This document shows, in pieces, positions 45,615 to 64,000 of a stretch of 64,000 nucleotides of DNA (positions within the stretch are counted from its first letter, which is position 1; each line of letters opens with the position of its first letter). The DNA is from Actinocorallia populi. Lineage in GTDB: Bacteria > Actinomycetota > Actinomycetes > Streptosporangiales > Streptosporangiaceae. The notes under the pieces were generated by a model that saw nothing but the letters and a program-made list of their open reading frames with translations, searched no databases and was not told the origin of the DNA. The stretch lies in the NCBI RefSeq assembly GCF_002995495.1, contig NZ_PVZV01000006.1:248001-312000 (forward strand). Direction: 5' to 3'. A program made the position numbers and the translations under genes.

Positions 45615-47090
45615 TCAGGGTGCTGTTCGCCGGAGGCGATGTCTCAGTTTCGTGTTGACGCGGCGGTAGTCGCCCGGGTCGACGGGTAGCAGCCACTGCA
45701 GGGCCTTGGTCGTTGCGCCGAGGTTGAGGCCGAGGTCGTCGAGGACCTCGTCGATGTTGTGCATGGAGAACGGGATGACGTTGGTGCCGCGCGCGTGGTG
45801 CCCGCGGGTGCGCTCCTCCATCCAGGCCAGCCGCTCGGAGACGGCGCGGCGGCGCTCCTCGACGGGAGGGACGGTGTGCAGGCCGGCGAGGTGGGAGGCG
45901 ATCCACACCGCCGACATCTCGGCCGACAGGGGGCTGAAGAACGAGGAGTTGTAACCGGCGAAGGTCAGGTTCGGCACGTCGTGCGGGAGGATGTGGCGGT
46001 AGAGCGCGAAGTTCCCCCGCTCGTCGGTGAGGCGCCGCCGCACGTCCTCGTCGAAGAAGGGAACCCGCTGCCGGAAGCCGGTGGCGCAGACGACGAGGTC
46101 GCTCGGCACGAGGGAGCCGTCCGCCAGCTCCGCGTGCGGTGCGCCGTCCTTCTCCAGGAAACGGGTGATCGTCAGGTCGCGGACGACCTTGATGCGGCCT
46201 TCGGTGACGGCTTCGAAGAAACCCTCGGTGACGAGGCCGACGGTGCTGCGGGCGATGTCCTCGAAGGTGCCTCCGGGCACCAGTCCGAGGGCGGGGAGCC
46301 GGTACTGCCGGGACGCCACGGACTGGACGCCGCGGATCATGGCACGGCGGAAGCCGTCGCCTCTGCCGTGCAGGAACCGTTCCAGGGCGGTGGGGGCGAT
46401 GTAGCGGAACATGCCCTCGCCCAGCCGGGTGAGCAGCAGGAACTTGTAGTTGACGAGGCCGCCGATCCGCCGGGGCGTCTTCCACAGCAGCCCGCGCGCC
46501 ACGACCGTCGTGGTGGCGGCGACGGTGGCGGTCTCGACCGCCACGTCGCAGGCCGACTTGCCGTAGCCGACCACGACCACATGCCTGCCGACGGCGTCGC
46601 CGAGCTCGCGGAAGCCGCTCGCGGGGAGGATCCGCCCCCCGGCGGCCTCCAGCACCTCCACACCCTTGAACGGCGGGATGAACGGTTCGGAGAAGATCCC
46701 GTTGGCGACCACCAGATGGTCGAAGTGCTCGGTGACCCCGCCTGCCGTGACGGCCCAGCCCGTTTCGTCCGCCAGGGGCGCGGCCCGGGTGACCTCGGTC
46801 GAGAGCCGCAACGACGGAGCGAGGGCGAAGCGCTCGACGTACAGCTCCAGATAGCGCTGCACCTGCTCACCCGTCGGCCACTCGGGATAGTCGCGGGGCA
46901 TCGGCAGCTCGGAGAACGCGTAAGTGCCTTTGTCGTTCTGGGTGCGCAGTCCCGGATAGCGACGGGTGGCGCTCCATACGCCGCCGACGTCGGGTGCTTT
47001 TTCGAAGACGACGACGTCGTGGTCGAAGTCACGGAGCACTTTGGCCGTGCCCAGCCCGGCGAAGCCTGCGCCGATGACGGCGATCCTCAT
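45615..47090 (-). CDS. FAD-dependent monooxygenase (FMO/BVMO-like)
   Basis: 491 residues from ATG 47090. FAD binding is MRIAVIGAGFAGLGTAKVLR and NADPH binding is VVVVGYGKSACDVAV. The substrate-linker motif FxGxxxHxxx(W/Y) of FMO and Baeyer-Villiger enzymes is not recognisable; that region reads FKGVEVLEAAGG and then ASGFREL. It still has the FMO-type CATGFRQRVPFF near the C-terminus. An N- or S-oxidation or hydroxylation role is more likely than lactone formation. It is divergent from an MFS exporter across a 348-base control region. Confidence 0.85.
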   Translation of the reverse strand: MRIAVIGAGFAGLGTAKVLRDFDHDVVVFEKAPDVGGVWSATRRYPGLRTQNDKGTYAFSELPMPRDYPEWPTGEQVQRYLELYVERFALAPSLRLSTEVTRAAPLADETGWAVTAGGVTEHFDHLVVANGIFSEPFIPPFKGVEVLEAAGGRILPASGFRELGDAVGRHVVVVGYGKSACDVAVETATVAATTTVVARGLLWKTPRRIGGLVNYKFLLLTRLGEGMFRYIAPTALERFLHGRGDGFRRAMIRGVQSVASRQYRLPALGLVPGGTFEDIARSTVGLVTEGFFEAVTEGRIKVVRDLTITRFLEKDGAPHAELADGSLVPSDLVVCATGFRQRVPFFDEDVRRRLTDERGNFALYRHILPHDVPNLTFAGYNSSFFSPLSAEMSAVWIASHLAGLHTVPPVEERRRAVSERLAWMEERTRGHHARGTNVIPFSMHNIDEVLDDLGLNLGATTKALQWLLPVDPGDYRRVNTKLRHRLRRTAP

Positions 47091-47438
47091 GGGTTCTGCC
47101 TTCGGTGTCGCGTGATCGGATGGCCGTTCGCCGAGCTCAGAGACGGCGGCCGCGGACCGTTTCGAGCTTAGGACGGGACGGCCGCCACCGGTGCTCACCA
47201 CACTCTCGACTCACCGGATGGTCACCGATGTGTCACCCAAGGTGATGAACGAGGCGGTGGTGCGAATATTTCGATGGCGATGTCGCAAATATCCGGAATG
47301 GTAGAAATTGATGGCGATGATGGCGCGCCCGGTTTCCGGTTTTTGTTGTCCAGCAGATTTCCATTGAATGGATTAACGCTGGTCGTGTGGTGTGATCCAG
47401 GTCATGCTCGGGCGATCCGTCCAGGGTTCAGAGGAAAC
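47091..47438. promoter_or_regulatory. Divergent control region of the monooxygenase and MFS genes
   Basis: This 348-base gap has no gene. It contains the TCACC repeat array (47195-47245), an AT-rich stretch from about 47262 to 47375 with GAATATTTC and AAATATCC, and TGTGATCCAGGTCATG at 47391-47406, a partial Crp-like site. GAGGAAA before 47439 is the MFS ribosome site. Confidence 0.5.
47195..47245. repeat. TCACC direct repeats at 11-base spacing
   Basis: TCACC occurs at 47195, 47211, 47222 and 47233; the last three are exactly 11 bases apart, one helical turn. The last copy also forms TCACC-N3-GGTGA (47233-47245). Eleven-base direct repeats with a TCACC core resemble the PHO-box units bound by PhoP in Streptomyces, though the flanking bases match only partly. 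Confidence 0.5.
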
Positions 47439-48887
47439 ATGGTGAACAGATCTTCGCGGCGCGCCGGCGTCTCGCCCGGCACCCTCTTCGCGGCCTGCGC
47501 GGCCATCGTGATCGCCCAGGTCGCGACCGTCGTCCCCGCCCCGATCGTCGGCATCATCCGGCAGGCCCACGGCCTCGACAACATGGCGCTGGCCTGGGTG
47601 ACCTCGGCGTTCCTGCTGCCCACCGCCGTGCTGGCCCTCACCTTCGGGCTGCTGGGCGACCGCTTCGGCCGCAAGTACGTCCTGATGGCGGGCGCGGCCG
47701 TGGTCGCCGTCGGAGAGATCATCGCCGGGGCGGCCGACGGCGTCCACCAGCTCTGGATCGGCCAGGCCGTCACCGGAGTCGGGGCGGGGGCCCTGATCCC
47801 CACCTCGCTGGCCATCGCCGTGGCGGGGGCGCCCACCGCCCTCAGCAGGTCCCGGGGCGTGGCGACCTGGACGATGGCCATGTCCCTCGGCACGATGATC
47901 GGCGTCCTGTACGGCAGCGCTCTGAACGAGTATTTCTCCTGGCACGCCTCCTTCTACGGGGTCGCGCCGCTCGCACTGGTGAGCCTGGTCATCACCACGG
48001 TGTGCGCGGAGGACTCCCGGGAGGCCCGCGGCCGTGCGCTGGACTGGCCCGGCCAGATCAGCCTCGTCGTCGGCCTCACCTGCCTGCTGTACGGCCTGGT
48101 CCAGGGCATGGGGAGCTCCTGGAAATCCCCGTCGGTGCTGGTCGCCCTCCCCGTCGCGGCGGTCGCCCTGCTCGTGTTCGCCGCGGTCGAGAGCCGGTCC
48201 GGTGCGCCGATGCTCCGCTTCGACCTCTTCCGGGACCCGGCGTTCGCCACGGCGACGGTCGCCGCGGTCATCGGCATGTTCTCCTTCCTCGGCAGCGTGT
48301 ACGCGCTCAGCATCCGGCTCGGGTTCCAGCAGCAGTCCGCGACCGACTCGGCCGTCTTCTTCGTCGTCCTCCAGGGCCTTCCCTGCCTGCTGGGCCCGGC
48401 GCTCCCGCGGCTGATGGACCAGCTCGGCGCGCGGCTCCTCATCACCGGCGGCCTGGCGCTGCTGGCGGCCGGCGAGATCTGGCTGGCCTTCGTCCCCCTC
48501 AGCCGGACGTCCCTGGTCTCCCTGACCGGTCCCCTGCTGCTGGAAGGCGTGGGATTCCTGTTCGTCGTCTCCGCCCTCACCGCCGCGGCGCTCAACTCCG
48601 CAGCCGGTCATTCCACCGGCATGACCAGTGCCGCCGTCAGCGCCGCCCGCAACATCGGCACCTGCCTGGGCCCCGCCGTGGTCGGCGCGGTCGCCCTGCA
48701 CAACGCCTCCGTAGCCCGGCCCGACCACCTGTGGGACGGCTACGCCACCGGCCTGCTCGTGTGCGCCGCGGCGTCCGTCATGGCCGCGTTCGCGACCCTG
48801 GTCTGGTTCCGTGAACCCGGCGCCCGCCCCGAGCCGCCCCGCTACCGGCCCCCGTCCCCGCCGCAGCCCTGGGCCCGACGGCCGTGA
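47439..48887 (+). CDS. MFS multidrug/metabolite exporter (DHA2-like)
   Basis: 482 residues with about fourteen hydrophobic helices. Motif A is FGLLGDRFGRKYVLM and the antiporter-type helix 5 region TMAMSLGTMIGVLYGSAL is present. ATG 47439 follows GAGGAAA; an ATG at 47274 is open in frame but covers AT-rich control DNA. Being divergent from the flavin monooxygenase, it could export the oxidised product. It converges with the TetR gene, 4 bases apart. Confidence 0.88.
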   Translation: MVNRSSRRAGVSPGTLFAACAAIVIAQVATVVPAPIVGIIRQAHGLDNMALAWVTSAFLLPTAVLALTFGLLGDRFGRKYVLMAGAAVVAVGEIIAGAADGVHQLWIGQAVTGVGAGALIPTSLAIAVAGAPTALSRSRGVATWTMAMSLGTMIGVLYGSALNEYFSWHASFYGVAPLALVSLVITTVCAEDSREARGRALDWPGQISLVVGLTCLLYGLVQGMGSSWKSPSVLVALPVAAVALLVFAAVESRSGAPMLRFDLFRDPAFATATVAAVIGMFSFLGSVYALSIRLGFQQQSATDSAVFFVVLQGLPCLLGPALPRLMDQLGARLLITGGLALLAAGEIWLAFVPLSRTSLVSLTGPLLLEGVGFLFVVSALTAAALNSAAGHSTGMTSAAVSAARNIGTCLGPAVVGAVALHNASVARPDHLWDGYATGLLVCAAASVMAAFATLVWFREPGARPEPPRYRPPSPPQPWARRP

Positions 48888-50835: not shown

Positions 50836-51836
50836 GCCGTCTTCTCCCGGGTACGGCGCGCGCCCAGGCGTGCGAGGCCCGCGCGAACGAAGGTGACCAC
50901 CCCGCGCGGGGCGAAGTAGAGGACCAGCAGCAGTACGGCGGCGTACGCCACCTGCGCCCACTGGCCCGAGGAGCCCCCGCCCATGTTGTCGCTCATGAGC
51001 TGCGGCAGGTAGGTGACGAACGCGCCGCCGACGATGGCCCCGGCCCAGGATCGGGTGCCTCCGACGACGCTCGCGGCCAGCAGCGTCAGGGAGAAGGCCA
51101 GGGTGAAGGTGTCGGGGGTGACCAGGGTGAGGGCCAGCGCGTTCAGCGCCCCCGCCAGGCCCGCGACGCCCGCGCTCAACGCGAACACGGTGAGCGTCAG
51201 CCGCCGGGTCTCGACGCCGTTCGAGACGGCCATCAGGGAGCTGGTGCGCAGTGCCTCGAGCGAGCGGCCGAACCTGCCGCGGGTCAGGTTGCGCAGCCCC
51301 AGCACGGCGACCCCGCACACGGCCAGGACGACCAGGTAGGCGAACTGCGCGTCCGCCAGCCCCGTCCAGCCGGGAGCCGACAGCGGCGGGGCGCCGAGCG
51401 CGTACCCGACCGCCCCTCCCGTCAGGCTCTCGAAGCGGGTCACCACCAGCGGGAACAGCGCGGCCACCGCGATCGTGATGAGGCCCAGGCCCAGGCCGTC
51501 CACGCGCAGGGCGGGCAGGCCCAGCAGCGCGCCGGCGCCCAGGCACAGGACGAGGGCGCCCAGCAGTGCCACCGGCCAGGGCATGCCGCCCTCGCCCACC
51601 AGCAGGACGCCGGTGTAGGCGCCGAGCCCGAACAGCGCGCCGTGCCCGGCGCTGACCTGCCCGGCGTAACCGCTGAGTAGGTTGAGGGAGGCGACCGCGA
51701 GCGCGACGGACCACACGCGCGAGAGCTGGAGCAGGTCGTAGTCGCTGAAGAGGAAGGGCACCGCCAGTGCCCAGACGACGGCGGCGATCCACGGCCAGGG
51801 CAGGCTCCGCCGGGAAGCCGTGGTCGGGGCGCTCAT
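50832..51836 (-). CDS. HAAT-type ABC transporter permease, LivM-like
   Basis: 334 residues, about ten hydrophobic segments. The LivM signature is LNLLSGYAGQVSAGHGALFG near residue 55 and the cytoplasmic loop is GRSLEALRTSSLMAVSNGVE. The C-terminal LYFAPRGVVTFVRA matches the family end. Coupled by 4-base overlaps to the LivH-like gene upstream and the receptor downstream. Confidence 0.92.
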   Translation of the reverse strand: MSAPTTASRRSLPWPWIAAVVWALAVPFLFSDYDLLQLSRVWSVALAVASLNLLSGYAGQVSAGHGALFGLGAYTGVLLVGEGGMPWPVALLGALVLCLGAGALLGLPALRVDGLGLGLITIAVAALFPLVVTRFESLTGGAVGYALGAPPLSAPGWTGLADAQFAYLVVLAVCGVAVLGLRNLTRGRFGRSLEALRTSSLMAVSNGVETRRLTLTVFALSAGVAGLAGALNALALTLVTPDTFTLAFSLTLLAASVVGGTRSWAGAIVGGAFVTYLPQLMSDNMGGGSSGQWAQVAYAAVLLLVLYFAPRGVVTFVRAGLARLGARRTREKTA

Positions 51837-52714
51837 GCGCGCACCGTCGCAGCCCGGCCGAACAGGCCCTGGGGACGCAGCAGCAGCACCGCGAAGATCA
51901 CCGCGAACGGGACGACGAGCTGCAGGTCGCCGCCCAGTCCCGGCACGTACCGGCTCGCCAGGCTGCCCGCCACGCCGATGATCAGACCGCCGACGACGGC
52001 GCCGCCGCGGCTCGTCATGCCGCCGAGCGTGGCCGCGGCCAGGGCCAGCAGCAGGGGCCCGGCCATCATCTCGGGGGACAGGCCGGCGATCGGCGCGGCG
52101 GCCGTCCCGGCCACCGCGCCGACCGCGCCGGCCAGCGCCCAGCCCAGGGCGAGCATGCGCCCGGTGCGCACGCCGAGCAGGCGGGCGGAGTCGGGGTTGG
52201 TCGCCACCGCGCGCAGCTTCAGCCCGACCGGGGTGAAGCGGAACAGCGCGGCGATCACCCCCATGGTCACCAGGACCAGCACCGCGGCGCCGACCTGCTG
52301 GCTGGTCAGCCGGATCTCGCCGACGCCCACCGACGAGGCGCCGAACGGCGACGCGAACGTCTTGGGATCGGTGTCCCAGACCAGCGCGATCAGCGCGTTG
52401 AGGCCGAGCAGCATCGCGGCTCCCGCCGCCAGCAGCACCATGGGTCCTGCTCCTTCCACCGGTCTGACCAGGACGCGTTCGACGGCCGCGCCCAGCGCCG
52501 CCGACAGCAGCACCGCCGCGGGGAACGCGAGCCAGAACGACATCCCGGCCTCGACCAGGCTCCACGCGCCGAACGCCGAGAGGGTCGCGAGCTCGCCCTG
52601 GGCGAGGTTGAGCATTCCGGTGCCCTGGAACACCACGCCGAGGGCGAGCGCCAGGCCTGCGTAGACGACGCCGGCCGCGAGGCCGGCCAGGATCTGCTGG
52701 ATGAACTCGGTCAT
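51833..52714 (-). CDS. HAAT-type ABC transporter permease, LivH-like
   Basis: 293 residues, the usual LivH length. It begins MTEFIQQILAGLAAGVVYAG and has the LivH motif GMLNLAQGELATLSAFGAW at about residues 33-51, then the loop LKLRAVATNPDSARLLGVRTG. The end LLRPQGLFGRAATVRA is typical. Overlaps both neighbours by 4 bases. Complete counterpart of the truncated permease at the start of the window, but clearly divergent from it. Confidence 0.93.
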   Translation of the reverse strand: MTEFIQQILAGLAAGVVYAGLALALGVVFQGTGMLNLAQGELATLSAFGAWSLVEAGMSFWLAFPAAVLLSAALGAAVERVLVRPVEGAGPMVLLAAGAAMLLGLNALIALVWDTDPKTFASPFGASSVGVGEIRLTSQQVGAAVLVLVTMGVIAALFRFTPVGLKLRAVATNPDSARLLGVRTGRMLALGWALAGAVGAVAGTAAAPIAGLSPEMMAGPLLLALAAATLGGMTSRGGAVVGGLIIGVAGSLASRYVPGLGGDLQLVVPFAVIFAVLLLRPQGLFGRAATVRA

Positions 52715-53541
52715 CGGCTCGCCTCCTCGGCGTCCGTGTCGGTCCGGGGGGCGGTCCCCGGATCCCGGGGGGCCGGTTCGGCCGATCCTCGCTTCGCTGC
52801 GGTCGTCCGAACCGGGGTCGTTCCGAGGTAGGCCGCGCGCAGCTCCGCCTCGTCCGAGAGCTCGGAGGCCGCGCAGGAGCGCGCCACCCCGCCGCGCGCC
52901 AGCACGACGGCGCGGTCGGCGACACGCAGGGACAGGCGGGCGTTCTGCTCGGCGAGCAGGACGGCCGTCGACCAGGAGGCGCGGATACCGGCCAGCGCCT
53001 CGAACAGCTCGGCTGTGGTGCGCGGCGCCAGGCCCAGCGACGGCTCGTCGACGAGCAGGACCCGCGGCCTGGCCAGCAGGGCCCGGCCCAGGGCGAGCAT
53101 CTGCTGCTGGCCTCCCGACAGGGCGCCGGCCGGCCGGCGCCGCATCTCCTTCAGGACGGGGAACATCTCGTGCACCCGTTCGAGATCGCTTTCGGCCTCC
53201 CCGCGCAGGGACCCGGGGCGGCCCATCGAACCGAGGCGGAGGTTCTCCTCGACGGTGAGCTCACCGAAGGTGCCGCGCCCCTGCGGGACGTGCCCGATCC
53301 CCGCACGGGCCGCGCCGATCGTGTCGAGCCGGGTCAGGTCCGCGCCGTCCAGCGTCAACGTCCCGCCGGTGGACACGACGCGGGACACCGCCCGCAGCAG
53401 GGTCGTCTTCCCGGCGCCGTTGGCGCCCAGGAGGGCGACCATCTCGCCTTCACGGACGTCGAGGGAGACGTCGTGGAGCACCTGCACCGAGCCGTACCGC
53501 GCGGTGAGGCCGTCCACCCGGAGGAGCGGTTCGGACGTCAT
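52711..53541 (-). CDS. HAAT-type ABC transporter ATP-binding protein, LivF-like
   Basis: 276 residues. Walker A GANGAGKT at about residues 39-46, signature LSGGQQQMLALGRAL, Walker B VLLVDEPSLGLAP and the LivF-type switch LLAEQNARL are all intact. A proline- and threonine-rich tail of about 35 residues follows the last conserved helix. Coupled by overlap to the LivG-like gene before it and the LivH-like gene after it. Confidence 0.93.
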   Translation of the reverse strand: MTSEPLLRVDGLTARYGSVQVLHDVSLDVREGEMVALLGANGAGKTTLLRAVSRVVSTGGTLTLDGADLTRLDTIGAARAGIGHVPQGRGTFGELTVEENLRLGSMGRPGSLRGEAESDLERVHEMFPVLKEMRRRPAGALSGGQQQMLALGRALLARPRVLLVDEPSLGLAPRTTAELFEALAGIRASWSTAVLLAEQNARLSLRVADRAVVLARGGVARSCAASELSDEAELRAAYLGTTPVRTTAAKRGSAEPAPRDPGTAPRTDTDAEEASR

Positions 53542-54374
53542 CGGCCGACCTCCTCGATCTCGGTTCCCAGGTAGGCGGCGATGACGCGCGGGTCCTCGGC
53601 GATCTCCTCGGGAGTCCCCGTGGCCAGCAGCTTGCCGGCGTCCAGGACGATGACGTGCCGGGCCACCGACATGACCAGCTCCATGTCGTGCTCGACCAGC
53701 AGAGCCGTCGTCGTCCCCTCTCCTGCGCCGTCGCAGACGGCCATGGCCGTCTCCAGCAGTTCGCGCGCCTCGTCGGCGTCCAGCCCTGCCGCGGGCTCGT
53801 CCAGGAGCAGCAGCCGGGGCCGGGCCATGACGGCACGCGCCACCTCGACCCTGCGCCGGTCGCCGTGCGGCAGCGAACCGGGGACGGTCCCCGCCAGGTG
53901 CGCGATGCCGAACGCGTCCAGCAGCCGGGACGCCTCGTTGCGCAGACGCCGCTCCTCGGAGCGGAAGAGGCCGCCGGCTACCAGGGTCGCCAGGACACCG
54001 GACCTGGTCCGGGTGTGCCCGCCGAGCATTACGTTGTCCAGGACGGGAAGTTCGTCCAGCAGCACGGGGGTCTGGAACGTCCGGGCGATGCCCCGCGCGG
54101 CGCGGGCGTGCGGGCCGAGCCCGGTGACGTCCTCACCATCCAGCAGGACGCCGCCTTCGTGGCGGTACAACCCGCTGACGCAGTTGAACAAAGTGGTCTT
54201 GCCCGCGCCGTTGGGCCCGATGAGGGCGCTGACGCCGCCGGAGGGGACGCCGAAGCCCACCTCGTCCAGGGCGCGCACGCCCTGGAAGGAGACGCCGACG
54301 TCCCGGACCTCCAGCGCGTGGCGCGAGAAGGACGGATCGGGTGGTCTGCTGCCGGAGTCGGTAGCAGGTTTCAC
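53538..54374 (-). CDS. HAAT-type ABC transporter ATP-binding protein, LivG-like
   Basis: 278 residues from GTG 54374, which has the strong site GAGGAGGAG upstream; a longer open frame to 54593 runs through the promoter region and is rejected. Walker A is GPNGAGKTTLFNCVSGL, the signature region is LPHGDRRRVEVARA, typical of LivG, Walker B is LLLLDEPAAGLD and the H-loop VEHDMELVM. First gene of the operon, 160 bases downstream of a Crp-type box. Confidence 0.92.
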   Translation of the reverse strand: MKPATDSGSRPPDPSFSRHALEVRDVGVSFQGVRALDEVGFGVPSGGVSALIGPNGAGKTTLFNCVSGLYRHEGGVLLDGEDVTGLGPHARAARGIARTFQTPVLLDELPVLDNVMLGGHTRTRSGVLATLVAGGLFRSEERRLRNEASRLLDAFGIAHLAGTVPGSLPHGDRRRVEVARAVMARPRLLLLDEPAAGLDADEARELLETAMAVCDGAGEGTTTALLVEHDMELVMSVARHVIVLDAGKLLATGTPEEIAEDPRVIAAYLGTEIEEVGR

Positions 54375-54534
54375 GGAGCTCTCCTCCTCAGGAACGGGGG
54401 ATGGGACGATCCGGCCCGGGTGCCAGAGCACGGGCCGGCAAGAAGGGAACCGAGGCTCGCGAGGGTTGCTCGGGACGGTTGCGAAGACCGTCTCTCGGGC
54501 GGACTTAAGCCGCCTGGCCTGGGACAACGCTAGG

Positions 54535-54552
54535 GTGTGAGGGCGCTCACAC
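54535..54552. promoter_or_regulatory. Crp-type box upstream of the second HAAT importer
   Basis: GTGTGAG-N4-CTCACAC, an exact 18-base palindrome that contains TGTGA-N6-TCACA (54536-54551), the consensus for Crp/GlxR family regulators. It lies 161 bases before the LivG-like start. On the minus strand the sequence TAGCGT (54532-54527) just downstream could be a -10 element. Control by cAMP-Crp is inferred. Confidence 0.65.
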
Positions 54553-54623
54553 GGAAATAAGATCTCGTGATGTCCGGAATTCGTGGATCCCATGACGGGT
54601 CGCGGAGGCGTCGGCGCGGGCGC

Positions 54624-55514
54624 TCAGCCGGTGAGTAGGCTCCGCAGCCAGCGGTGTCCGGGGTCGGACTCCGCCAGCGGGTGCCAGAAGGCCTCCTCCT
54701 GGAGCGCGGCGGTCGGGACGGGCAGCTCGACCGATCGGATGCGGGCGGAACGGGCGGCCTTCTCGGCGAAGCGCCGGGGGAGCAGGCCGATCCGTCCGGT
54801 GTGCTCGACCAGCAGCGGCACCTCGAAGAACGACTCGACGGAGACGCGGATCGCGAGCGTGATGCCGAGGACCTCCAGCTGGCGCTTGATGTGGGATCCG
54901 GCGTTGCTCGGGTCGTCGAAGAGGCCGACCATGGGGAGCCGGCCCAGATCCTCCAGCGTGAGCCGGTCGCCGGCCGGGCCGCGGTCCCGGTCGACGACGC
55001 CGACCCAATCGTCGGCGGCCAGGGGGAGGGAGGGGAATCCGGGCAGCCACGCCTTGGGCACGACGAGCAGGTCGACGCGGCGGAGCAGGACCTCGGGGTC
55101 GTGCAGGTGCTCGCCCCGCACGGCTCCCAGCTGGAGGCGGATCCCGGGTGCGACCTCCTCGAGCCGCCGCAGCGGGGCGGCCAGGAGCGAGAGGGCGTAG
55201 TCAGACCCCCGGACGCTGAAACGCCGGATGCTGGTGGCGGGATCGAACTCCTGGACGACGTCGTAGGTGCGCTCGGCCAGGGAGAGCGTCGCCGAGACCA
55301 TGTCCAGCAGGCTCGCGGCCAGCGGCGTCAGCTCCATCGCCTGGCCCCTGCGCACGAGCAGCTCGTCGCCGAACTGCCGCCGCAGCCGGGCGAGAGCGTT
55401 GCTCGCAGCCGGCTGGGTGATCCCCAGGCGCTCCCCGGCGCGGGTGACGTTGCGCTCCTCCAGCAGCGCGCGCAGGGCGACCAGGAGGTTCAGGTCGTAG
55501 CGTGCGAGGTCCAT
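54624..55514 (-). CDS. LysR-family transcriptional regulator (NodD-like)
   Basis: 296 residues. The N-terminus MDLARYDLNLLVALRALLEE and HTH GERLGITQPAASNALARL belong to the NodD/NahR-like branch, members of which often respond to aromatic compounds. ATG 55514 has AGGAG upstream. It lies between the second HAAT importer and the aromatic-acid permease, all on the minus strand; 201 bases upstream without features separate it from the permease stop. Target not clear: importer or aromatic module. Confidence 0.9.
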   Translation of the reverse strand: MDLARYDLNLLVALRALLEERNVTRAGERLGITQPAASNALARLRRQFGDELLVRRGQAMELTPLAASLLDMVSATLSLAERTYDVVQEFDPATSIRRFSVRGSDYALSLLAAPLRRLEEVAPGIRLQLGAVRGEHLHDPEVLLRRVDLLVVPKAWLPGFPSLPLAADDWVGVVDRDRGPAGDRLTLEDLGRLPMVGLFDDPSNAGSHIKRQLEVLGITLAIRVSVESFFEVPLLVEHTGRIGLLPRRFAEKAARSARIRSVELPVPTAALQEEAFWHPLAESDPGHRWLRSLLTG

Positions 55515-55715
55515 CCGGGCTCCTGCCATCGGCGTGTGCGCGGCGCGCATGCCGTCCGGGACGACGGTTCTTTCGCGTGGTTCGAACTTAGGGCATCCCG
55601 CCCCCGGCGCCGAAACCAGCGGACCGGGGGCGAGACGCCTCCCCGCGGACCGGCCGCCCGCAGGGGAGTCCGGTCTCCGGGCAGAGATCGGGGACCGGAC
55701 TCGTGGACGGCCGGA

Positions 55716-57074
55716 CTACGCCGGGCTGCCGGCGGCCGCGGCGCCGGGGGCCGGACGGGACGGTTCGGCCCGGCCGAGGCGGAAACCGGTGACGACCAGG
55801 GCGCCGAGGACCAGGACGGCCGCGACGAGGAGGAGCAGTCGTCCGGGGGTCCAGCCCGCGTCCAGGAGCACGCCCGCGACCGTCGGCGCGAGGATCGCGC
55901 CGACGCGGCCGATGCCGATGCCCCAGCCGACGCCGGTGGCGCGGACGGAGGGGCCGTAGACGGCCGGGGTGAGGGCGTACAGGCCGGCGACGCAGCCGTT
56001 GACGAAGACGCCGATCATCGCGCCCAGCGCGAGGACCAGCCCGAAGACGGGGGAGGCGGGGACGAACAGGGTGAGGAGGACGGCGGTGGCGAGCAGGTAG
56101 CCGGTGAGGATGTTCTTCAGAGCGAAGCGGGCGGCCAGGACGCCGAGCAGCGCAGTGCCGAAGATGCCGCCGAGGTTGAGCAGGACGCCGCCGGTGATGC
56201 CCTGGTTCGCCGACATGCCCGCCTCGACCAGCAGCTTGGGCGTCCAGCTGGTGACGAAGTAGAACCCGAACATCACCAGGAAGAAGCCCGCCCAGGTCAG
56301 CAGGGTGTTGCGGCGCAGGTCCGGTGAGAGGATCTGCCTGATCCCGGCCCTGGGGGCCCGTGCGCCGCCGTCCGGAGCGGGCGGCAGCTCGGTGAGCGCC
56401 GGCTGCCTCATCCCGGCGAGGAGCCCGTTGACCTGGCCGAGGGTCCGGTCGGAACGCCGGGACAGCAGGAAGTCCAGGGACTCGGGCAGCCGCCAGAGCA
56501 CCACGGGGATCAGCAGCGCGGTGGCGACGGCGCCGAAGGCGAACACCGACCGCCAGCTGCCGGAGTCCTGCAGGAAGGCCGCGATGACGCCGCCGGCGGT
56601 GGCGCCTATGGCGTAGCCGGTGGAGTTGAGGCTGACGGCCAGCCCGCGCCAGCGGCGGTTGGCGTACTCGGCGGAGATCACATTGCTGCTGGCCAGGACG
56701 CCGCCGATGCCGATGCCGGTGAGGACCCGCAGCGCGCCCAGCTGCGCGGCGCTCTGGGCGAGCGCCGACAGGCCCATGCCCGAGGAGGACAGGACCAGGC
56801 CGACGAGAATCATCGTGCGGCGGCCGAGGCGGTCGGCGAGGGGCGCCAGGAAGATCGAGCCGAGGGCCATGCCGACGAGCCCCGCGCTCAGCAGCAGCCC
56901 GAGCCGGGAGCCCGACAGCCCCCACTCGTCGGAGACCTCGGCGGACGTGAAGGCCATGACCAGCACGTCGAATCCGTCGAGGACGTTGAGCAGGACGCAC
57001 ACGGCGATCGCGGTCCACTGGAACGGCGTCATGGGCCCGTCGTCGATACGGTCGCGCAGACCGGGAGAACTCAT
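55716..57074 (-). CDS. MFS permease, aromatic acid:H+ symporter (AAHS) type
   Basis: 452 residues, twelve helices. Helix 1 has the AAHS marker LLNVLDGFDVLVMAFTS (DGFD), loop 2-3 is APLADRLGRRTMIL, and helix 4-5 has GIGIGGVLASSNVISAEY. PcaK, BenK and VanK are family members that import hydroxy- and methoxybenzoates. It is divergent from the IclR gene and close to the P450 operon, so import of the P450 substrate is inferred. A disordered alanine/proline-rich tail ends the protein. Confidence 0.88.
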   Translation of the reverse strand: MSSPGLRDRIDDGPMTPFQWTAIAVCVLLNVLDGFDVLVMAFTSAEVSDEWGLSGSRLGLLLSAGLVGMALGSIFLAPLADRLGRRTMILVGLVLSSSGMGLSALAQSAAQLGALRVLTGIGIGGVLASSNVISAEYANRRWRGLAVSLNSTGYAIGATAGGVIAAFLQDSGSWRSVFAFGAVATALLIPVVLWRLPESLDFLLSRRSDRTLGQVNGLLAGMRQPALTELPPAPDGGARAPRAGIRQILSPDLRRNTLLTWAGFFLVMFGFYFVTSWTPKLLVEAGMSANQGITGGVLLNLGGIFGTALLGVLAARFALKNILTGYLLATAVLLTLFVPASPVFGLVLALGAMIGVFVNGCVAGLYALTPAVYGPSVRATGVGWGIGIGRVGAILAPTVAGVLLDAGWTPGRLLLLVAAVLVLGALVVTGFRLGRAEPSRPAPGAAAAGSPA

Positions 57075-57147
57075 CGAGTCCGCCTCCTTCGGGGGGGTGG
57101 GATCGCTCGAGCATGAGCTGGATCACATCGGCGGGCCAGGGGTAATT

Positions 57148-57156
57148 CATTCAATG
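57148..57156. promoter_or_regulatory. CATTCAATG element, IclR operator candidate (permease side)
   Basis: CATTCAATG is a 9-base near-palindrome (CATT/AATG around one base) in the 127-base divergent gap between the AAHS permease and the IclR gene. The identical 9 bases recur before the P450 operon, and both copies are followed within three bases by AAGC. Confidence 0.5.
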
Positions 57157-57201
57157 GATAAGCTCAGCGCCGGTGGCCCTTGTAGTGGAAAGGACGGGAT
57201 C

Positions 57202-57945
57202 GTGGCGAGATCGCCCAGCGGGGAGTCGGTCCTCACCCGGGTCGTGCGGATCTTCGCCGCGTTCGGTCACGACTCGCCCGTGCTCACGGTGAGCGAGATC
57301 AGCCGCCGCGCGGCGCTGCCGCAGGCGACCACGGCCCGCCTGGTCAAGGAGCTGGTCGAGCACGGCCTGCTCGCCCGCGACGAGCAGCGCAGGGTGCGGA
57401 TAGGCAACCGCATGTGGGAACTGGCCGAGCGCGCCTCGCCGCTGCGGGGCCTGCGCGAGGTCGCCCTGCAGTACATGGGCGACCTCCACTCGATCGTCGG
57501 GCACTCCACCCAGCTGGGCGTGCTGGACGGGACCGAGGCGCTCTTCGTGGAGCGGCTGACCGCCCCCGAGGCGGTGGTCAACGTCACGCGCGTGGGCGGG
57601 CGGCTGCCCCTGCACGCCTCGTCGGCGGGCCTGGTCCTGCTGACCCACGCCCCGGCCGAGCTGCGCGAGCGGATCCTGCGGGGGCCGCTGCCCGGCTTCA
57701 CCCCGAACACGATCACCGATCCGAGGGCGCTGCGCGCGGAGCTCGCGGAGGTCCGCCGCCGGGGGTTCGCCTTCTGCCCCGGCCACATCCACCCCGACGC
57801 CACGGGCCTGGCCGTTCCCGTTCGCGCCCACGGCCGGGTGGTGGCGGCGCTCGGCCTGGTGGTGCCCAACGACGACACGGCCTGGCCGTTGAACAGGCAC
57901 CTCCAGCTCACCGGCCTGGCGTTGAGCAGAGCCCTGAGCGGCTGA
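57202..57945 (+). CDS. IclR-family transcriptional regulator
   Basis: 247 residues. The N-terminal winged HTH is LTVSEISRRAALPQATTARL, and the effector domain shows GHSTQLGVLDGTEALFVERL, GRLPLHASSAGLVLL and the C-terminal FCPGHIHPDATGLAVPV, where the cysteine is conserved in many IclR proteins. GTG 57202 has AAGGA seven bases upstream; ATG 57154 is in frame but sits inside the CATTCAATG element. IclR proteins such as PcaR and PobR control aromatic-acid pathways. It should regulate the divergent permease and the P450 operon 113 bases downstream. Confidence 0.9.
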   Translation: MARSPSGESVLTRVVRIFAAFGHDSPVLTVSEISRRAALPQATTARLVKELVEHGLLARDEQRRVRIGNRMWELAERASPLRGLREVALQYMGDLHSIVGHSTQLGVLDGTEALFVERLTAPEAVVNVTRVGGRLPLHASSAGLVLLTHAPAELRERILRGPLPGFTPNTITDPRALRAELAEVRRRGFAFCPGHIHPDATGLAVPVRAHGRVVAALGLVVPNDDTAWPLNRHLQLTGLALSRALSG

Positions 57946-57977
57946 GGGGAATGTGATCCGGGTAACGGATTCTTCCC

Positions 57978-57986
57978 CATTCAATG
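57978..57986. promoter_or_regulatory. CATTCAATG element, IclR operator candidate (P450 side)
   Basis: Second exact copy of CATTCAATG, 73 bases before the reductase start and 33 bases after the IclR stop. Flanking TTCT and AGAA may extend the dyad. Matching copies at both ends of the IclR gene suggest one regulator for the transporter and the enzymes. Confidence 0.5.
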
Positions 57987-58058
57987 AGAAGCCGCTGGCC
58001 GCCGGGCCGAGGCCGGGCCGATCCTCGAGGTCCACCCCCTGTGACGCGAGGAGCATCC

Positions 58059-59054
58059 ATGGCGATGACACCCATGGCGGAGCCGCCGGACCCGGTAGGG
58101 ACGGCCCCGCGATCCACGGCGCTGAACCTGCGGGTGACGGCCAAGACCCGGGTGGCCGAGGGCGTCGTGGCACTGACCCTGGCCCGCCCCGACGGCGGCA
58201 GGCTCCCCGACTGGACGCCGGGCGCGCACGTGGACCTGGTGCTGCCCGGCGGTCTGACCCGGCAGTACTCGCTCTGCGGCGACCGCTGGGACGCCTCCAC
58301 CTACCGGATCGGGGTGCTGCGCGAGCCAGGCGGCCGCGGCGGCTCGGCGTTCGTCCACGACGAGCTGGCCGTCGGCGACCTCGTGGGGATCGGCGGCCCG
58401 CGCAACAACTTCCGGCTGGTGCCCGCGGAGCGCTACCTCTTCATCGCGGGCGGCATCGGGATCACCCCGCTGCTGCCCATGATCGTCCAGGCGGAGCTGA
58501 CGGGAATCCCCTGGAAGCTGCTGTACGGCGGCCGGACGCGCTCGTCGATGGCCTTCCAGGACGAGTTGAGCACCCACGGCGACAAGGTCTCCTTCGTTCC
58601 GCACGACGAACACGGACCGCTGGACCTGGCCGCCTGGCTGAACGACGTCCCGGACGGAACCAGGGTCTACTGCTGCGGCCCCGCCGGGCTTCTCGACGCG
58701 GTGGAGCGGCACTGCGCCGACCTGCCGGCCGGACGGCTGCGCCTCGAGCGCTTCGTCGCGGCGGACCGGCCCGCCGGCGCCCGCGACGACGCCTTCGAGG
58801 TCGAGCTGCGCCGCTCCGGCAGGACGCTCGCCGTCGACCGCGACCAGTCCCTGCTCCAGGCCCTGGGGGAGGCCGGCGTCAACGTGCTGTCCTCCTGCCA
58901 CCAGGGACTGTGCGGGACCTGCGAGACGACCGTCCTGGACGGCGTTCCCGACCACCGCGACGCGCTGCTGGACGACGCCGAGCGCGCGGCGGGCGACTGC
59001 ATCTTCGTGTGCGTTTCCCGCTCCCTCAGCGACCGCCTCGTCCTGGACCTGTGA
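58059..59054 (+). CDS. Phthalate-dioxygenase-reductase-type reductase (flavin plus [2Fe-2S])
   Basis: 331 residues. The flavin domain carries RQYSLCG and the NAD domain [11 protein letters not shown]; a plant-type ferredoxin domain follows at the C-terminus with [15 protein letters not shown] (three cysteines, C-x4-C-x2-C) and the fourth in GDCIFVC. This is the VanB/PDR layout, which passes electrons from NAD(P)H to a terminal oxygenase in one protein. ATG 58059 follows GAGGAG. The P450 starts 17 bases later, so this single protein is the probable redox partner of the P450. Confidence 0.92.
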
Positions 59055-59071
59055 CCCCCGGAGGACCACCG

Positions 59072-60274
59072 ATGACCCTCACCGCACCCCCGCACGTCCC
59101 GGAACTGGCCGCCGACCCGTTCGCCTCCGGCGTGCTCGAGAACCCCCTCCCGCTGCAGGCCGAACTGCGCGACGCGGGCCCCGTGGTGTACCTGAGCCAC
59201 TACGACGTCTACGGTCTGGCCCGCTACGAGGAGGTCCACGCCGCGCTGACCGACTGGCAGTCCTTCCAGTCCGGCGCCGGAGTCGGGCTGTCCAACTTCC
59301 GCCACGAGAAGCCGTGGCGCCCGCCGAGCCTGCTGCTGGAGGCCGACCCTCCCGCCCACGACGCCCCGCGCGCCGTCCTGTCGAAGATCCTGAGCCCCCG
59401 CGCGCTGCGCTCCCTGCGCGAGGCCTGGTTCGCCGACGCCGAGAAGCTGGTCGACGAGGTGCTGGCCGAGACGTCCTTCGACGCCGTCACCGCGCTCACC
59501 CAGGCGTTCCCGCTGCGGGTCTTCCCCGACGCGGTCGGGCTGCGCAAGGAGGGGAGGGAGAACCTCCTCCCCTACGGCGACCACGCCTTCAACGCCTTCG
59601 GCCCGCAGAACGGGCTGGTGGCCAAGGGCGCGCCGCGGGTGGCCGAGCTGTCGGGCTGGGTCAACGCCCAGTGCGCCCGCGACCGGCTTTCCCCCGGCGG
59701 CTTCGGCGCCCGGATCTGGGAGGCCTCCGACCGGGGGGACATCACCCCGGAGCAGGCCCCGCTCGTCGTCCGCTCGCTGCTGACCGCCGGGGTGGACACC
59801 ACCATCCACGCCCTCGGCGCGGTGCTCCACGCCTTCGCCGCCCATCCCGAGCAGTGGAGCCGCCTCCGCGAGGAGCCCGGCCTGGCCCGCGTCGCCTTCG
59901 ACGAGGCGGTCCGCTGGGAGTCGCCCGTGCAGACCTTCTTCCGGACCGCCACGCGGGACGTCGACGTCGCCGGGACCGTGATCCCCGAGGGCAGGAAGAT
60001 CCTCATGTTCCTCGGCGCGGCCAACCGCGACCCGCGCCGCTGGGCGGACCCCGACGCCTTCGACCTGTCGCGCGACCCGTCCGCCCACGTCGGCTTCGGC
60101 ATGGGCCTCCACCAGTGCGTGGGCCAGCACGTCGCCCGCCTCGAAGCGGAGGCGCTGCTGACCGCGCTGGCCGCGCGGGTGGAGCGCATCGAGCCCGCCG
60201 GGACGCCCCGGCGCCACCTCAACAACACCCTGCGCGCCTGGGCGTCGCTGCCCGTGCGCGTCCATCCGGCCTGA
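59072..60274 (+). CDS. Cytochrome P450, CYP199-like (para-substituted benzoate oxidase type)
   Basis: 400 residues. The heme-binding loop is [16 protein letters not shown] with C349 as thiolate ligand; the I-helix oxygen-activation site is AGVDTT (T243/T244); the K-helix ExxR is EAVR. The segments [19 protein letters not shown] and [18 protein letters not shown] resemble CYP199A enzymes, which O-demethylate 4-methoxybenzoate and oxidise other para-substituted benzoates and cinnamates. Formaldehyde dehydrogenase downstream and AAHS permease upstream agree. The assignment to CYP199 rests on remembered sequence similarity and was not tested by alignment. Confidence 0.88.
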
Positions 60275-60342
60275 ACGGGCCTTTCGTCACCAGCCCGCGT
60301 GCGGCCGAGCACGCGGGCCCGATCAGCGAGGAAGAACAACAC

Positions 60343-61425
60343 ATGCAGAAGGTGCGCGGCGTGGTCGCCAAGGCCAAGGGGCAGCCGGTCTCGATCGAGA
60401 CGATCGTCATCCCCGCCCCTGGCCCGGGTGAGGCCGTCGTCCGGATCCAGGCGTGCGGGGTGTGCCACACCGACCTGCACTACCGCGAGGGCGGCATCAA
60501 CGACGAGTTCCCGTTCCTGCTCGGCCACGAGGCCGCCGGGACCGTGGAGTCCGTCGGCGAGGGCGTCACCGAGGTCGCGCCGGGCGACTTCGTGGTGCTG
60601 AACTGGCGTGCTGTCTGCGGGCAGTGCCGGGCGTGCCTGCGGGGGCGGCCGCAGTACTGCTTCGACACCCACAACGCCAGGCAGAAGATGACCCTGGAGG
60701 ACGGCACCGAGCTGTCGCCCGCGCTGGGCATCGGCGCGTTCGCGGAGAAGACCCTGGTGGCGGCCGGGCAGTGCACCAAGGTGGATCCGGCGGCCAAGCC
60801 GGAGGTCGCCGGGCTGCTGGGCTGCGGCGTGATGGCGGGGATCGGCGCCGCCATCAACACCGGCGGCGTGACGCGGGGCGACTCGGTGGCCGTCATCGGC
60901 TGCGGCGGTGTCGGCGGGGCCTCGATCATGGGCGCCCGGCTGGCCGGGGCGGCGAAGATCATCGCCGTCGACATCGACACCCGCAAGCTGGAGAAGGCTC
61001 GTGAGCTGGGCGCGACCCACATCGTCAACTCCAGGGAAGTCGACGCGGTGGAGGCGATTCGCGAGTTGACCGGCGGGTTCGGCGCGGACGTCGTGGTTGA
61101 GGCCGTGGGCCGTCCCGAGACGTACGAGCAGGCGTTCTACGCCCGTGACCTGGCCGGGACCGTCGTCCTGGTCGGGGTGCCGACCCCGGAGATGAGGCTG
61201 GAGCTGCCGCTGCTGGAGGTCTTCGGCCGCGGCGGGGCGCTGAAGTCCTCCTGGTACGGCGACTGCCTGCCCTCGCGGGACTTCCCCATGCTCATCGACC
61301 TGTACCTGCAGGGCCGCCTCGACCTCGGGGCGTTCGTCACCGAGACCATCGGCATCGACGGCATCGAGGCCGCGTTCGCCAAGATGCACCACGGCGACGT
61401 GCTGCGCTCGGTGGTGATCCTGTGA
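60343..61425 (+). CDS. mscR: Mycothiol-dependent formaldehyde dehydrogenase / S-nitrosomycothiol reductase
   Basis: 360 residues, zinc-dependent medium-chain dehydrogenase. The catalytic zinc region is [20 protein letters not shown] follows, and the structural zinc cysteines are in [15 protein letters not shown]; the NAD motif is IGCGGVGG. The sequence pattern is that of actinobacterial MscR/AdhE2, which oxidises S-hydroxymethyl-mycothiol, formed spontaneously from formaldehyde. GAGGAAG lies eight bases before ATG 60343. Directly after a putative O-demethylating P450, it would remove the formaldehyde produced. Confidence 0.9.
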
Positions 61426-62051
61426 CCGCCGCCATCAGCCACCTGGTCACCTCCGGCACCTTCTCCCTGGACGGCGGCACCTGGGACGTCGACAACAACG
61501 TCTGGATCATCGGCGACGCCCGCGAGGCCATCGTCATCGACGCCGCCCACGACGCCGGGGCCATCGCCGCCGCCGTCGGGGACCGCAGGCTGCTGGCGAT
61601 CGTCTCCACGCACGGCCACGACGACCACATCGACGCCGCACCCGTCCTCGCCGACGCCACGGGTGCGCCGATCCTGCTGCACCCGGACGACCTGATGCTC
61701 TGGAAGCAGCGGCACCCCGACCGCGAACCGGACGGCCACCTGTCCGACGGGCAGGTCATCGCCGTCGGCGGCATCGAGCTGACCGTCCTGCACACCCCGG
61801 GCCACAGCCCCGGCGCGGTCTGCCTTCACGCGCCCGCCCTGGGCACGGTCTTCTCCGGGGACACCCTCTTCCAGGGCGGTCCGGGCGCGACGGGACGCTC
61901 GTTCTCGGACTTCCCGACCATCATCGGCTCGATCAGGGACCGCCTCCTGACGCTCCCTCCCGAGACGGTCGTCCGCACCGGTCACGGAGAGAGCACCACC
62001 ATCGGAGCCGAGGCACCCCACCTGCCGGAGTGGATCGCCCGCGGCCGCTGA
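61422..62051 (+). CDS. Metallo-beta-lactamase-fold hydrolase, partner of mycothiol formaldehyde dehydrogenase
   Basis: 209 residues from GTG 61422, overlapping the mscR stop. Metal ligands are in [13 protein letters not shown] (HxHxDH), [16 protein letters not shown] and TGHGEST. The glyoxalase-II-like shape and its fixed position after mscR in many actinomycetes suggest hydrolysis of an S-acyl-mycothiol, such as S-formylmycothiol, giving formate and free mycothiol. The exact substrate is not established. Confidence 0.87.
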
Positions 62052-62057
62052 CCGCGA

Positions 62058-62090
62058 CCCCTCCCCCGGCTCCCGGTGCCGGGGGAGGGG
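62058..62090. terminator. Bidirectional hairpin terminator
   Basis: A perfect 13-base-pair G/C stem (62058-62070 and 62078-62090) with a 7-base loop lies between the stop of the metallo-hydrolase and the stop of the convergent DUF202 gene. It should end the P450/mscR operon and the DUF202 operon. Confidence 0.85.
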
Positions 62091-62094
62091 CGGC

Positions 62095-62424
62095 TCAGCC
62101 GTGCAGGAGCACGGCGCTCAGGTTGAACGCCGCGATCACGATGATGAGGCCGGTGAGCGCCCGCGTCGCGCGGGCGTGCGCGGTCAGGACGCTGGCGACC
62201 GGTCTGCCGCGCCCGCGCCGGTATCCGCGGGAGGCGGCGAGCCAGATCAGCGCCGCGGCCGCGATGGTCGTGCCGCCGAACACGACCGCGAGCGTCCCCA
62301 ACGCGGAGGTCGCACGGGCGAGCAGCGTCCCGTTGACCGCGATCAGCAGGGCTGTGCGCTGCCAGGCCAGTGCTGTGCGTTCCAGTTGTGCGCCGGGGTC
62401 CGCCAGGCGTTCGGCCGGTGTCAC
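62095..62424 (-). CDS. DUF202 membrane protein
   Basis: 109 residues with three hydrophobic helices. The DUF202 marker is RTALAWQRTALLIAVNGTLL, near the N-terminus. GTG 62424 overlaps the stop of the preceding DUF202 gene. Two adjacent small DUF202 proteins are common in actinomycetes. Function is unknown; they probably form a heteromeric membrane complex. Confidence 0.82.
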   Translation of the reverse strand: MTPAERLADPGAQLERTALAWQRTALLIAVNGTLLARATSALGTLAVVFGGTTIAAAALIWLAASRGYRRGRGRPVASVLTAHARATRALTGLIIVIAAFNLSAVLLHG

Positions 62425-63087: not shown

Positions 63088-64000
63088 TCAGAACTTGATC
63101 ATGCCGCGGATGTTCTTGCCGTCGCGCATGTCCTGGTAGCCCTGGTTGACCTCGTCGAGGGTGTAGGTGCTGGTGACGAGGTCGTCGAGGTTGAGCTTGC
63201 CGTCCTGGTAGAGGCGCAGGAGGCGGGGGATGTCGCGGCGGGGGTTGGCGTTGCCGAAGATGCAGCCGACCAGCTCCTTGCGCTGCATCGCCATGTCGAA
63301 CAGGTTGAGCTTGACGTCCTCCTGGAGGATGGGCGCGACGGCGGTGAGCACGCCGCGGCCGCCCTTGGTGACCATGCCCATCATCGGGCCGATGAGCTCG
63401 CCGGTGGCCACGCCGGTGGTGAGGATGACCTTGTCGGCCATCGCGCCCCAGGTGATCTCGCCGACCAGCGCCATGGCCTCCTCGATGGAGGCGGCGGTGT
63501 GGGTGGCGCCGAAGAGCCTGGCCTTCTCGCGCTTCCACTCCACGGGCTCCACGGCCACGACGTACCGGGCTCCGGCCAGGGCCGCGCCCTGCACGGCGTT
63601 CATGCCCAGGCCGCCGGTGCCGATCACCACGACGGTCTCGCCCGCCCGCACGTCGGCGGCGTTGACGGCCGAGCCCCAGCCGGTGGTGACGCCGCAGCCG
63701 ACCAGCGCCGCCTTGTCCAGCGGGATCCAGTCGTCGATCTTGACGCAGCTGCTCTCGTTGACCACGGTGTAGGGCGCGAACGTGCCGGTGCAGCACATGG
63801 TGCCCAGGTCCGTGCCGTCCGCGGCGTGGTGGCGCGAGGTCATGTCGCTGATCTGGCGGCCGGCCAGCAGCACCGCGCCCAGGTCGCACAGGTGCTGGCG
63901 GCCCATGGCGCAGGAGGGGCAGCGGCCGCACGCCGGGATGAAGGACAGGACGACGTGGTCGCCCTCCTTCAGCGTGGTCACGCCCGGACCGACCTCGACG
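63088..64000 (-). CDS. NDMA-type zinc alcohol dehydrogenase (5' truncated by window edge)
   Basis: About 304 C-terminal residues are visible; the frame is still open at base 64000, so the N-terminus and catalytic zinc region lie outside. Structural zinc cysteines are in IPACGRCPSCAMGRQHLC, and the nucleotide motif is VIGTGGLGMNAVQGA. The segment SRHHAADGTDLGTMCCTGTF is typical of nicotinoprotein (N,N-dimethyl-4-nitrosoaniline-dependent) alcohol dehydrogenases of actinomycetes, which hold NAD tightly and can dismutate aldehydes. Proximity to the mycothiol formaldehyde gene suggests a second C1 or aldehyde route. Confidence 0.88.
   Translation of the reverse strand, partial: VEVGPGVTTLKEGDHVVLSFIPACGRCPSCAMGRQHLCDLGAVLLAGRQISDMTSRHHAADGTDLGTMCCTGTFAPYTVVNESSCVKIDDWIPLDKAALVGCGVTTGWGSAVNAADVRAGETVVVIGTGGLGMNAVQGAALAGARYVVAVEPVEWKREKARLFGATHTAASIEEAMALVGEITWGAMADKVILTTGVATGELIGPMMGMVTKGGRGVLTAVAPILQEDVKLNLFDMAMQRKELVGCIFGNANPRRDIPRLLRLYQDGKLNLDDLVTSTYTLDEVNQGYQDMRDGKNIRGMIKF

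Follow-up and report, generated by a model that had tools for sequence, protein, structure and literature searches.

A predicted para-methoxybenzoate O-demethylation operon with co-encoded formaldehyde oxidation genes in Actinocorallia populi

Formaldehyde, the by-product of aromatic O-demethylation, is toxic. The demethylation itself has been termed essential and rate-determining for lignin upgrading (PMC11530827). The described system most like the one examined here is PbdAB of Rhodococcus jostii RHA1, in which the CYP199A cytochrome P450 PbdA (PDB 9g9q) has the single-protein reductase PbdB as its published partner; the ligands of the substrate carboxylate in PbdA are Arg84, Ser87 and Ser237 (PMC11530827). 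Genes for formaldehyde removal within or beside aromatic operons are also already known: vanA2B2 on plasmid pRGD2 of Rhodococcus GD02 encodes an aromatic O-demethylase with mycothiol-dependent formaldehyde genes nearby (PMC9618137), and galBCD-fdhA2 of Pseudomonas sp. NGC7 is an operon for a methoxylated aromatic acid that includes a formaldehyde dehydrogenase gene (PMC12314914). Here we describe a locus of Actinocorallia populi in which genes for a PbdB-type reductase, a CYP199 P450, the mycothiol-dependent formaldehyde dehydrogenase MscR and a metallo-hydrolase follow one another. The locus occupies positions 55716-62051 of the window, by which we mean the whole stretch of 64,000 nucleotides analysed (contig C6, 248001-312000, of a genome of 8.25 Mb in 25 contigs).

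Taken together, the sequence comparisons make it quite probable that the locus encodes para-methoxybenzoate O-demethylation with co-encoded formaldehyde oxidation under IclR control, and that its mscR-hydrolase pair is an add-on that has undergone gene conversion. The enzymes belong to known families in a variant arrangement, and the interest of the locus lies in the apparent repeated capture of the pair, in the conversion and in a readable operator, not in the reductase. Both published precedents with formaldehyde genes differ from it. In Rhodococcus GD02 the demethylase is VanAB, of the Rieske type, not a P450, and the accessible text describes the genes as proximal, not as one operon (PMC9618137); Pseudomonas sp. 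NGC7 has another formaldehyde dehydrogenase (FdhA2) and carries vanA1B1 in a separate operon, with a P450 unmentioned in the accessible text (PMC12314914). A search of the literature by title and the start of the abstract found no mscR gene beside a CYP199 operon, which is weak evidence, because the search did not cover the primary RHA1 paper or the bulk of the subscription literature. The scattered mscR linkage, the conversion tract and the 17-base palindrome before the reductase gene seem to be new. Natural operons that join a PbdAB-type demethylase to formaldehyde oxidation would be ready parts for lignin-using strains, and the locus would also be a clean case of by-product detoxification recruited into a pathway operon.

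The features of the locus, in window positions, are:

55716-57074, minus strand: MFS transporter, probably of the AAHS kind (TIGR00895, 3e-109; Pfam MFS_1), divergent from iclR
57144-57160, no strand: weak palindromic site that overlaps the start codon of iclR and matches 10 of the 16 consensus positions, with CATTCAATG at 57148-57156
57154-57945, plus strand: IclR-family regulator (IclR_C and HTH_IclR; nearest model TIGR02431, PcaR/PcaU/PobR, below its cut-off)
57974-57990, no strand: palindrome TCCCCATTCAATGAGAA ahead of the reductase gene, matching the consensus at 14 of 16 positions; likely IclR operator
58059-59054, plus strand: PbdB-type (phthalate dioxygenase reductase-like) flavin/NAD/[2Fe-2S] reductase (PDB 6kbh, 6laa, 2pia; Fer2)
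59072-60274, plus strand: CYP199-family P450, predicted PbdA-type para-methoxybenzoate O-demethylase (PDB 9g9q, 679 bits)
60343-61425, plus strand: mscR, S-(hydroxymethyl)mycothiol dehydrogenase, a formaldehyde dehydrogenase (TIGR03451 equivalog, 687.8 bits, cut-off 512.9)
61087-61506, no strand: tract of gene conversion with the other mscR-hydrolase pair of the genome, on contig C7 (from nucleotide identity steps)
61422-62051, plus strand: metallo-beta-lactamase-fold hydrolase, glyoxalase II-like, candidate S-formylmycothiol hydrolase (Lactamase_B; HGHDDH, GDTLF)
62058-62090, plus strand: hairpin that follows the last gene and lacks a T run, possible terminator (-38 kcal/mol, z -3.64)

An earlier reading of this DNA, made from the sequence alone and called the sequence-only reading below, had listed the same six genes, and their coordinates, order, gaps and overlap are as it gave them. 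The last four genes have a tight, operon-like layout, with 17 bases between the reductase and P450 genes, 68 bases between the P450 gene and mscR, and an overlap of 4 bases between mscR and the hydrolase gene, and would probably be co-transcribed. A shared terminator had been proposed as well; the strong hairpin bears this out in part, but it has no T run, and a terminator scan of 57000-62400 found no T-run terminator and did not pick up the hairpin. A sigma-70-type promoter was sought over the same interval, and the scan found none.

By sequence, the P450 is a member of the CYP199 family, as had been suggested, and its nearest characterised relatives are all CYP199 proteins; the sequence-only reading had named a grouping outside CYP199 as a result that would refute it, and the P450 passes this check. 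The best PDB match is PbdA (679 bits), followed by CYP199A4 (502 bits) and by 2fr7/4dnj, which we take to be CYP199A2 (492 bits); the first P450 from outside the family scores 182 bits. CYP199A2 and CYP199A4 are proteins of Rhodopseudomonas. RHA1 was compared through another strain, R. jostii NBRC 16295, whose homologue (L063) is 76% identical to the window P450 and scores 856 bits against 9g9q. A check of the substrate-contact residues, proposed with the sequence-only reading, finds them conserved: R83, S86 and S235 of the window P450 align with Arg84, Ser87 and Ser237 of PbdA, and are invariant across the seven sequences aligned; in the PDB comparison the Arg and both Ser also align with those of CYP199A4. 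The window P450 and PbdA both have Ala before a Phe-Asn-Ala-Phe motif where CYP199A4 has Val, a residue suggested to hinder veratrate in that enzyme (PMC11530827). The window P450 would act on p-anisate, veratrate or isovanillate by hydroxylating the para-methoxy carbon, and the products would be 4-hydroxybenzoate, vanillate or protocatechuate, plus formaldehyde.

The reductase combines a flavin/NAD module with a C-terminal [2Fe-2S] domain (motifs RQYS, GGIGITP and C-x4-C-x2-C), in agreement with its earlier assignment to the phthalate dioxygenase reductase type. Its PDB relatives are 2pia, which is phthalate dioxygenase reductase, and two P450 fusion proteins that it resembles in their reductase part (6kbh, 6laa), and electrons would pass from NADH through flavin and the [2Fe-2S] cluster to the P450. 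For CYP199A2 and CYP199A4 the partner is a separate ferredoxin with a ferredoxin reductase, and the single protein at this locus had been taken for a notable departure. We reject it as a novelty, because PbdB is in print as the reductase partner of a CYP199A P450 (PMC11530827) and the pairing is the rule among relatives. Of the best 80 named among the 246 P450 relatives found, 79 carry a reductase homologue immediately before the P450 gene on the same strand, and the single exception (L092) begins at a contig edge. The pairing also occurs in 30/30 loci of a second set, which includes the window's own locus and whose genomes partly overlap those of the 80. PbdB is known here through the homologue in R. 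jostii NBRC 16295, which is 68% identical to the window reductase; that strain also shares the order iclR-reductase-P450, but differs in that mscR is absent within its 7 kb flanks. The likeness to PbdAB thus extends to P450 family, carboxylate-binding residues and reductase partner.

The assignment of mscR also holds: its product scores 687.8 bits against the S-(hydroxymethyl)mycothiol dehydrogenase model and is, by that family criterion, a true member. The genome has the mycothiol synthesis gene mshC (TIGR03447, 640.8 bits, cut-off 485.1; mshC was the only msh gene searched) and two mscR genes over the family cut-off, the second in an mscR-hydrolase pair on contig C7. Formaldehyde would join mycothiol non-enzymatically, MscR would oxidise the adduct to S-formylmycothiol, and the metallo-hydrolase would probably free formate and mycothiol. 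The metallo-hydrolase of the sequence-only reading is present, with its Lactamase_B domain and HGHDDH and GDTLF motifs. Because a homologue of it follows 54 of the 58 mscR genes examined, linked to a P450 or free, it is a natural candidate for S-formylmycothiol hydrolysis, and probably has that role. That step has been described in Corynebacterium glutamicum, with no gene named for it in the accessible text; AdhE, the mycothiol-dependent formaldehyde dehydrogenase of that species, has the same reaction as is expected of MscR (PMC12914118). Unlike adhE, the window mscR is a second copy placed in a catabolic operon, with another pair elsewhere in the genome.

The linkage of mscR to the P450 gene extends beyond this genome. 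In 10 of the 80 relatives, mscR lies directly after the P450 gene on the same strand, 27-84 bases past the aligned P450 end, and in 9 of these 10 the hydrolase gene comes next. The ten loci comprise one labelled Glycomyces fuscus, one Nocardiopsis, two Nonomuraea, five Streptomyces and one Kineococcus; further linked cases are the window and the locus L028 of genome G106. No other same-strand gene is as common just downstream of the P450 in the 80 relatives. (Genes were also picked roughly by GC content at third codon positions, which mixed in antisense frames; this picking served for choosing genes to scan, not for counts.) Because the reductase gene is upstream in 79/80 relatives and mscR downstream in 10/80, the arrangement is not chance. 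Genomes searched have 0-5 mscR copies at strict thresholds. In Nocardiopsis sp. N85 (G124/G298) and Kineococcus xinjiangensis (G303), the copy in the P450 operon is the only one at the thresholds used. The locus titled Glycomyces fuscus (L040) groups with Nocardiopsis on the P450 tree, which may reflect a mislabel or a transfer.

Other genes take the downstream position elsewhere. A homologue of LigM/DesA-type O-demethylases is the next same-strand gene in five of the 80 relatives, all Blastococcus (L066, L085, L101, L105, L108); three of the five were scanned, and all three were below the curated cut-offs. The Blastococcus loci have a class III extradiol dioxygenase homologue about 3 kb downstream (L066 scanned). 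A downstream cluster in six Actinomadura loci looks like an antisense frame. BoxC and a gene of the benzoate-CoA ligase family are encoded past the P450 gene, on the opposite strand, in six Actinomadura loci, of which L048 was scanned.

For the history of the pair, the two copies in the A. populi genome are informative. Compared in 90-base steps, the window mscR and the free mscR on contig C7 (L202) start at 69% identity, run at 82-91% for seven steps and end with four steps at 98-100%. In 60-base steps, identity is 98-100% across 61087-61506, seven successive steps that reach into the hydrolase gene; beyond 61506 the hydrolase identity is 67-97%, and an isolated step at 60667 also reaches 98%. 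This tract of about 400 bases, 98-100% identical amid less similar surroundings, is gene conversion between the genome's two pairs. The linked and free mscR genes of Nonomuraea thailandensis (L065) are likewise 98-100% identical in every 90-base step except the first (74%), with a distant hydrolase (48% identity) at the linked locus.

Conversion limits what the mscR tree can say. That tree has 58 rows (30 of 35 and 30 of 33 matches taken as loci, minus the duplicates L155 and L157); the linked label needs seven changes on it, six of them forced, and an approximately unbiased (AU) test rejects a single linked clade (p 7e-35). A count of about six independent recruitments from this tree alone was dropped, since conversion tracts bias the tree. 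Because conversion pulls a linked mscR toward the free copy of its own genome, the claim of recruitment was moved to the hydrolase and P450 trees. The P450 tree has 90 rows, of which 12 are linked, and its bootstrap had not settled; the linked loci are scattered over it, and starred branches force all seven of the changes that their label requires. The hydrolase tree has 53 rows, 10 of them linked, and excludes the columns of the window tract; L156, L174, L162 and L163, which have no downstream hydrolase, and L134, whose match was too short, were omitted, and here too the bootstrap had not settled. Removal of the long-branch rows L171, L164, L159 and L178 gives a reduced tree of 49 rows, 8 of them linked. 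A single clade of linked hydrolases is rejected with either set (p 5e-4 with 10 linked rows, 6e-4 with 8); the starred branches of the full tree force three changes, and the reduced tree needs three.

In the hydrolase tree the window copy is not grouped with its own genus, but shares a clade with the two Nocardiopsis-like linked copies and 12 free ones from a single genus group to which Actinomadura belongs (99/97), while the five linked Streptomyces hydrolases group with two free Streptomyces ones (100/99). We also considered the window pair as a simple within-genus duplicate, and set this aside: its mscR groups with free copies from its own genus and its hydrolase does not. Constraining the hydrolase to join own-genus copies gives p 0.075, which falls short of ruling such a duplicate out firmly. 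The hydrolase trees support two or three recruitments of the pair, and larger numbers would not be secure. We infer that the mscR-hydrolase pair is an add-on, recruited more than once in actinobacteria, to a reductase-P450 unit that is otherwise conserved and usually has iclR nearby. The fuller claim, that the cassette joined pbdB-pbdA on two or three independent occasions or more, always at one position, that it is retained there as a second copy homogenised by conversion with another one in the genome, and that the operon has a readable IclR operator, seems to us evenly balanced between true and false. If it is true, the locus would show an operon in the course of growing, as it takes up a detoxification step locally.

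Several observations weigh against O-demethylation with co-encoded formaldehyde oxidation by a recruited pair. No mscR gene adjoins the P450 gene in 70 of the 80 relatives, so the P450 needs no adjacent mscR; within the same genus, G222 (L010) has iclR-reductase-P450 with mscR absent in the 1.5 kb downstream. In the window itself, mscR begins 68 bases after the P450 gene, and the second mscR pair could suffice alone. The hydrolase is below every NCBIfam cut-off that it matched, with 77.3 bits against GSH_gloB (glyoxalase II), whose cut-off is 200.8. Finally, repeated losses, whole-operon transfer, or conversion of the hydrolase gene outside the detected tract could mimic some of the recruitments.

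An alternative is that a single ancient event placed the pair beside the CYP199 operon, that most lineages later lost it, and that conversion with free copies erased the common ancestry from the mscR tree. Conversion is real both in the window and in N. thailandensis; of the six copies that come closest to the window mscR over its first 90 bases, four are linked; and a single clade of the window and Nocardiopsis linked hydrolases is not rejected (p 0.14). However, the hydrolase tree rejects a single linked clade even with the window-tract columns excluded, the Streptomyces and window linked hydrolases sit in separate clades among free copies, the linked hydrolase of N. thailandensis is distant, and a single gain on the P450 tree would cost more than seven events. 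We therefore regard one ancient linkage as possible but rather doubtful.

It is improbable, in our judgement, that the P450 acts mainly on some other para-substituted benzoate, with demethylation as a side reaction. Both PbdA and CYP199A4 do hydroxylate and desaturate p-ethylbenzoate, but this compound did not support growth of RHA1 (PMC11530827). The residues that bind p-methoxybenzoate are kept in the window P450, and mscR, which encodes a formaldehyde enzyme, adjoins the P450 gene in 12 of the 90 loci of the P450 tree, which fits a reaction that releases formaldehyde.

That the mscR-hydrolase pair lies here by chance, has a promoter to itself and is functionally unrelated to the P450 is very improbable: the 68-base gap, the 70 relatives without adjacency and the occurrence of the pair where no P450 is linked would suit it, but mscR is the commonest downstream gene, in several families and always within 27-84 bases, the seven label changes on the P450 tree mean that the adjacency recurs, and at strict thresholds no genome searched has more than 5 mscR copies.

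Under the preferred reading, in which demethylation and formaldehyde oxidation are encoded together, the IclR protein would probably control the operon by way of the palindrome ahead of the reductase gene, and might use it for the divergent transporter gene too. The protein has the IclR superfamily domains and scores 118.4 bits against TIGR02431, below the cut-off of 284.75; an IclR homologue is present, on either strand, in the loci of 71/80 relatives. The window contains three copies of the string CATTCAATG, where 0.03 would be expected: one at the start codon of iclR, one ahead of the reductase gene and one at 47362. Upstream of the reductase gene, 84 regions were compared (L092, with no reductase match, is missing) and first-order Markov resampling served as control. 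The palindromic core CATTNAATG is present in 7 of these regions, the window included, against 0.03 after resampling. The 17-base palindrome TTCTCATTNAATGAGAA is matched at 12 or more of its 16 positions in 46 regions (0.1 resampled) and at 10 or more in 71 (5.7 resampled), counts to be read with the fact that these regions also served to derive the consensus, only the 9-base core coming from the window alone. The pattern CATTNAATGRRA has three matches in the genome, one of them at this locus, and the backward control pattern has one. The 17-base palindrome is thus likely an IclR operator, and would be a candidate operator for the IclR-type regulators in the 71 loci. The gap between the P450 gene and mscR in the window has no such site (best match 8/16), which fits, without proving, read-through from a promoter before the reductase gene. 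A repeat search in two intergenic stretches found no inverted pair by the rules of the tool.

Uptake was part of the original proposal, and here the support is weaker. The AAHS model TIGR00895 is the best match of the transporter, over its full length, and the protein probably works in the AAHS manner, but its 365.6 bits are under the curated cut-off of 418.55 and membership of that family is not claimed. The gene is divergent, and an MFS homologue is found within the fetched flanks of 7/80 relatives. The description of the module as self-contained proved too strong, because genes for the use of its products lie elsewhere, and the pair on contig C7 encodes formaldehyde removal a second time. 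Downstream on the same contig are a PobA-like hydroxylase gene about 40 kb away (just under its cut-off), pcaH about 44 kb away (over its cut-off) and, about 13 kb away, genes for a VanA-like Rieske oxygenase and a phthalate dioxygenase reductase-type reductase, with an iclR gene; the VanA-like protein matches Pfam VanA_C and reaches no NCBIfam cut-off. With these genes on the contig, demethylated substrates could therefore reach the protocatechuate branch.

Some further neighbours may be mentioned. A gene of the NDMA-dependent alcohol dehydrogenase family (TIGR03989, over its cut-off) lies near the operon at 63088-63981 (minus strand) and continues beyond the window end. On the other side, 51833-54593 (minus strand) holds what appear by eye to be ATP-binding cassette (ABC) transporter genes of the branched-chain amino acid type, possibly for aromatic acid uptake, and beside them a LysR gene (54624-55550) adjoins the module. 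The third copy of the operator core, CATTCAATGGAA at 47359-47370 (minus strand), lies close to where an MFS gene (47274-48887) starts, and is possibly a second target of the same regulator; that MFS gene forms a divergent pair with a flavin monooxygenase-like gene (45615-47201).

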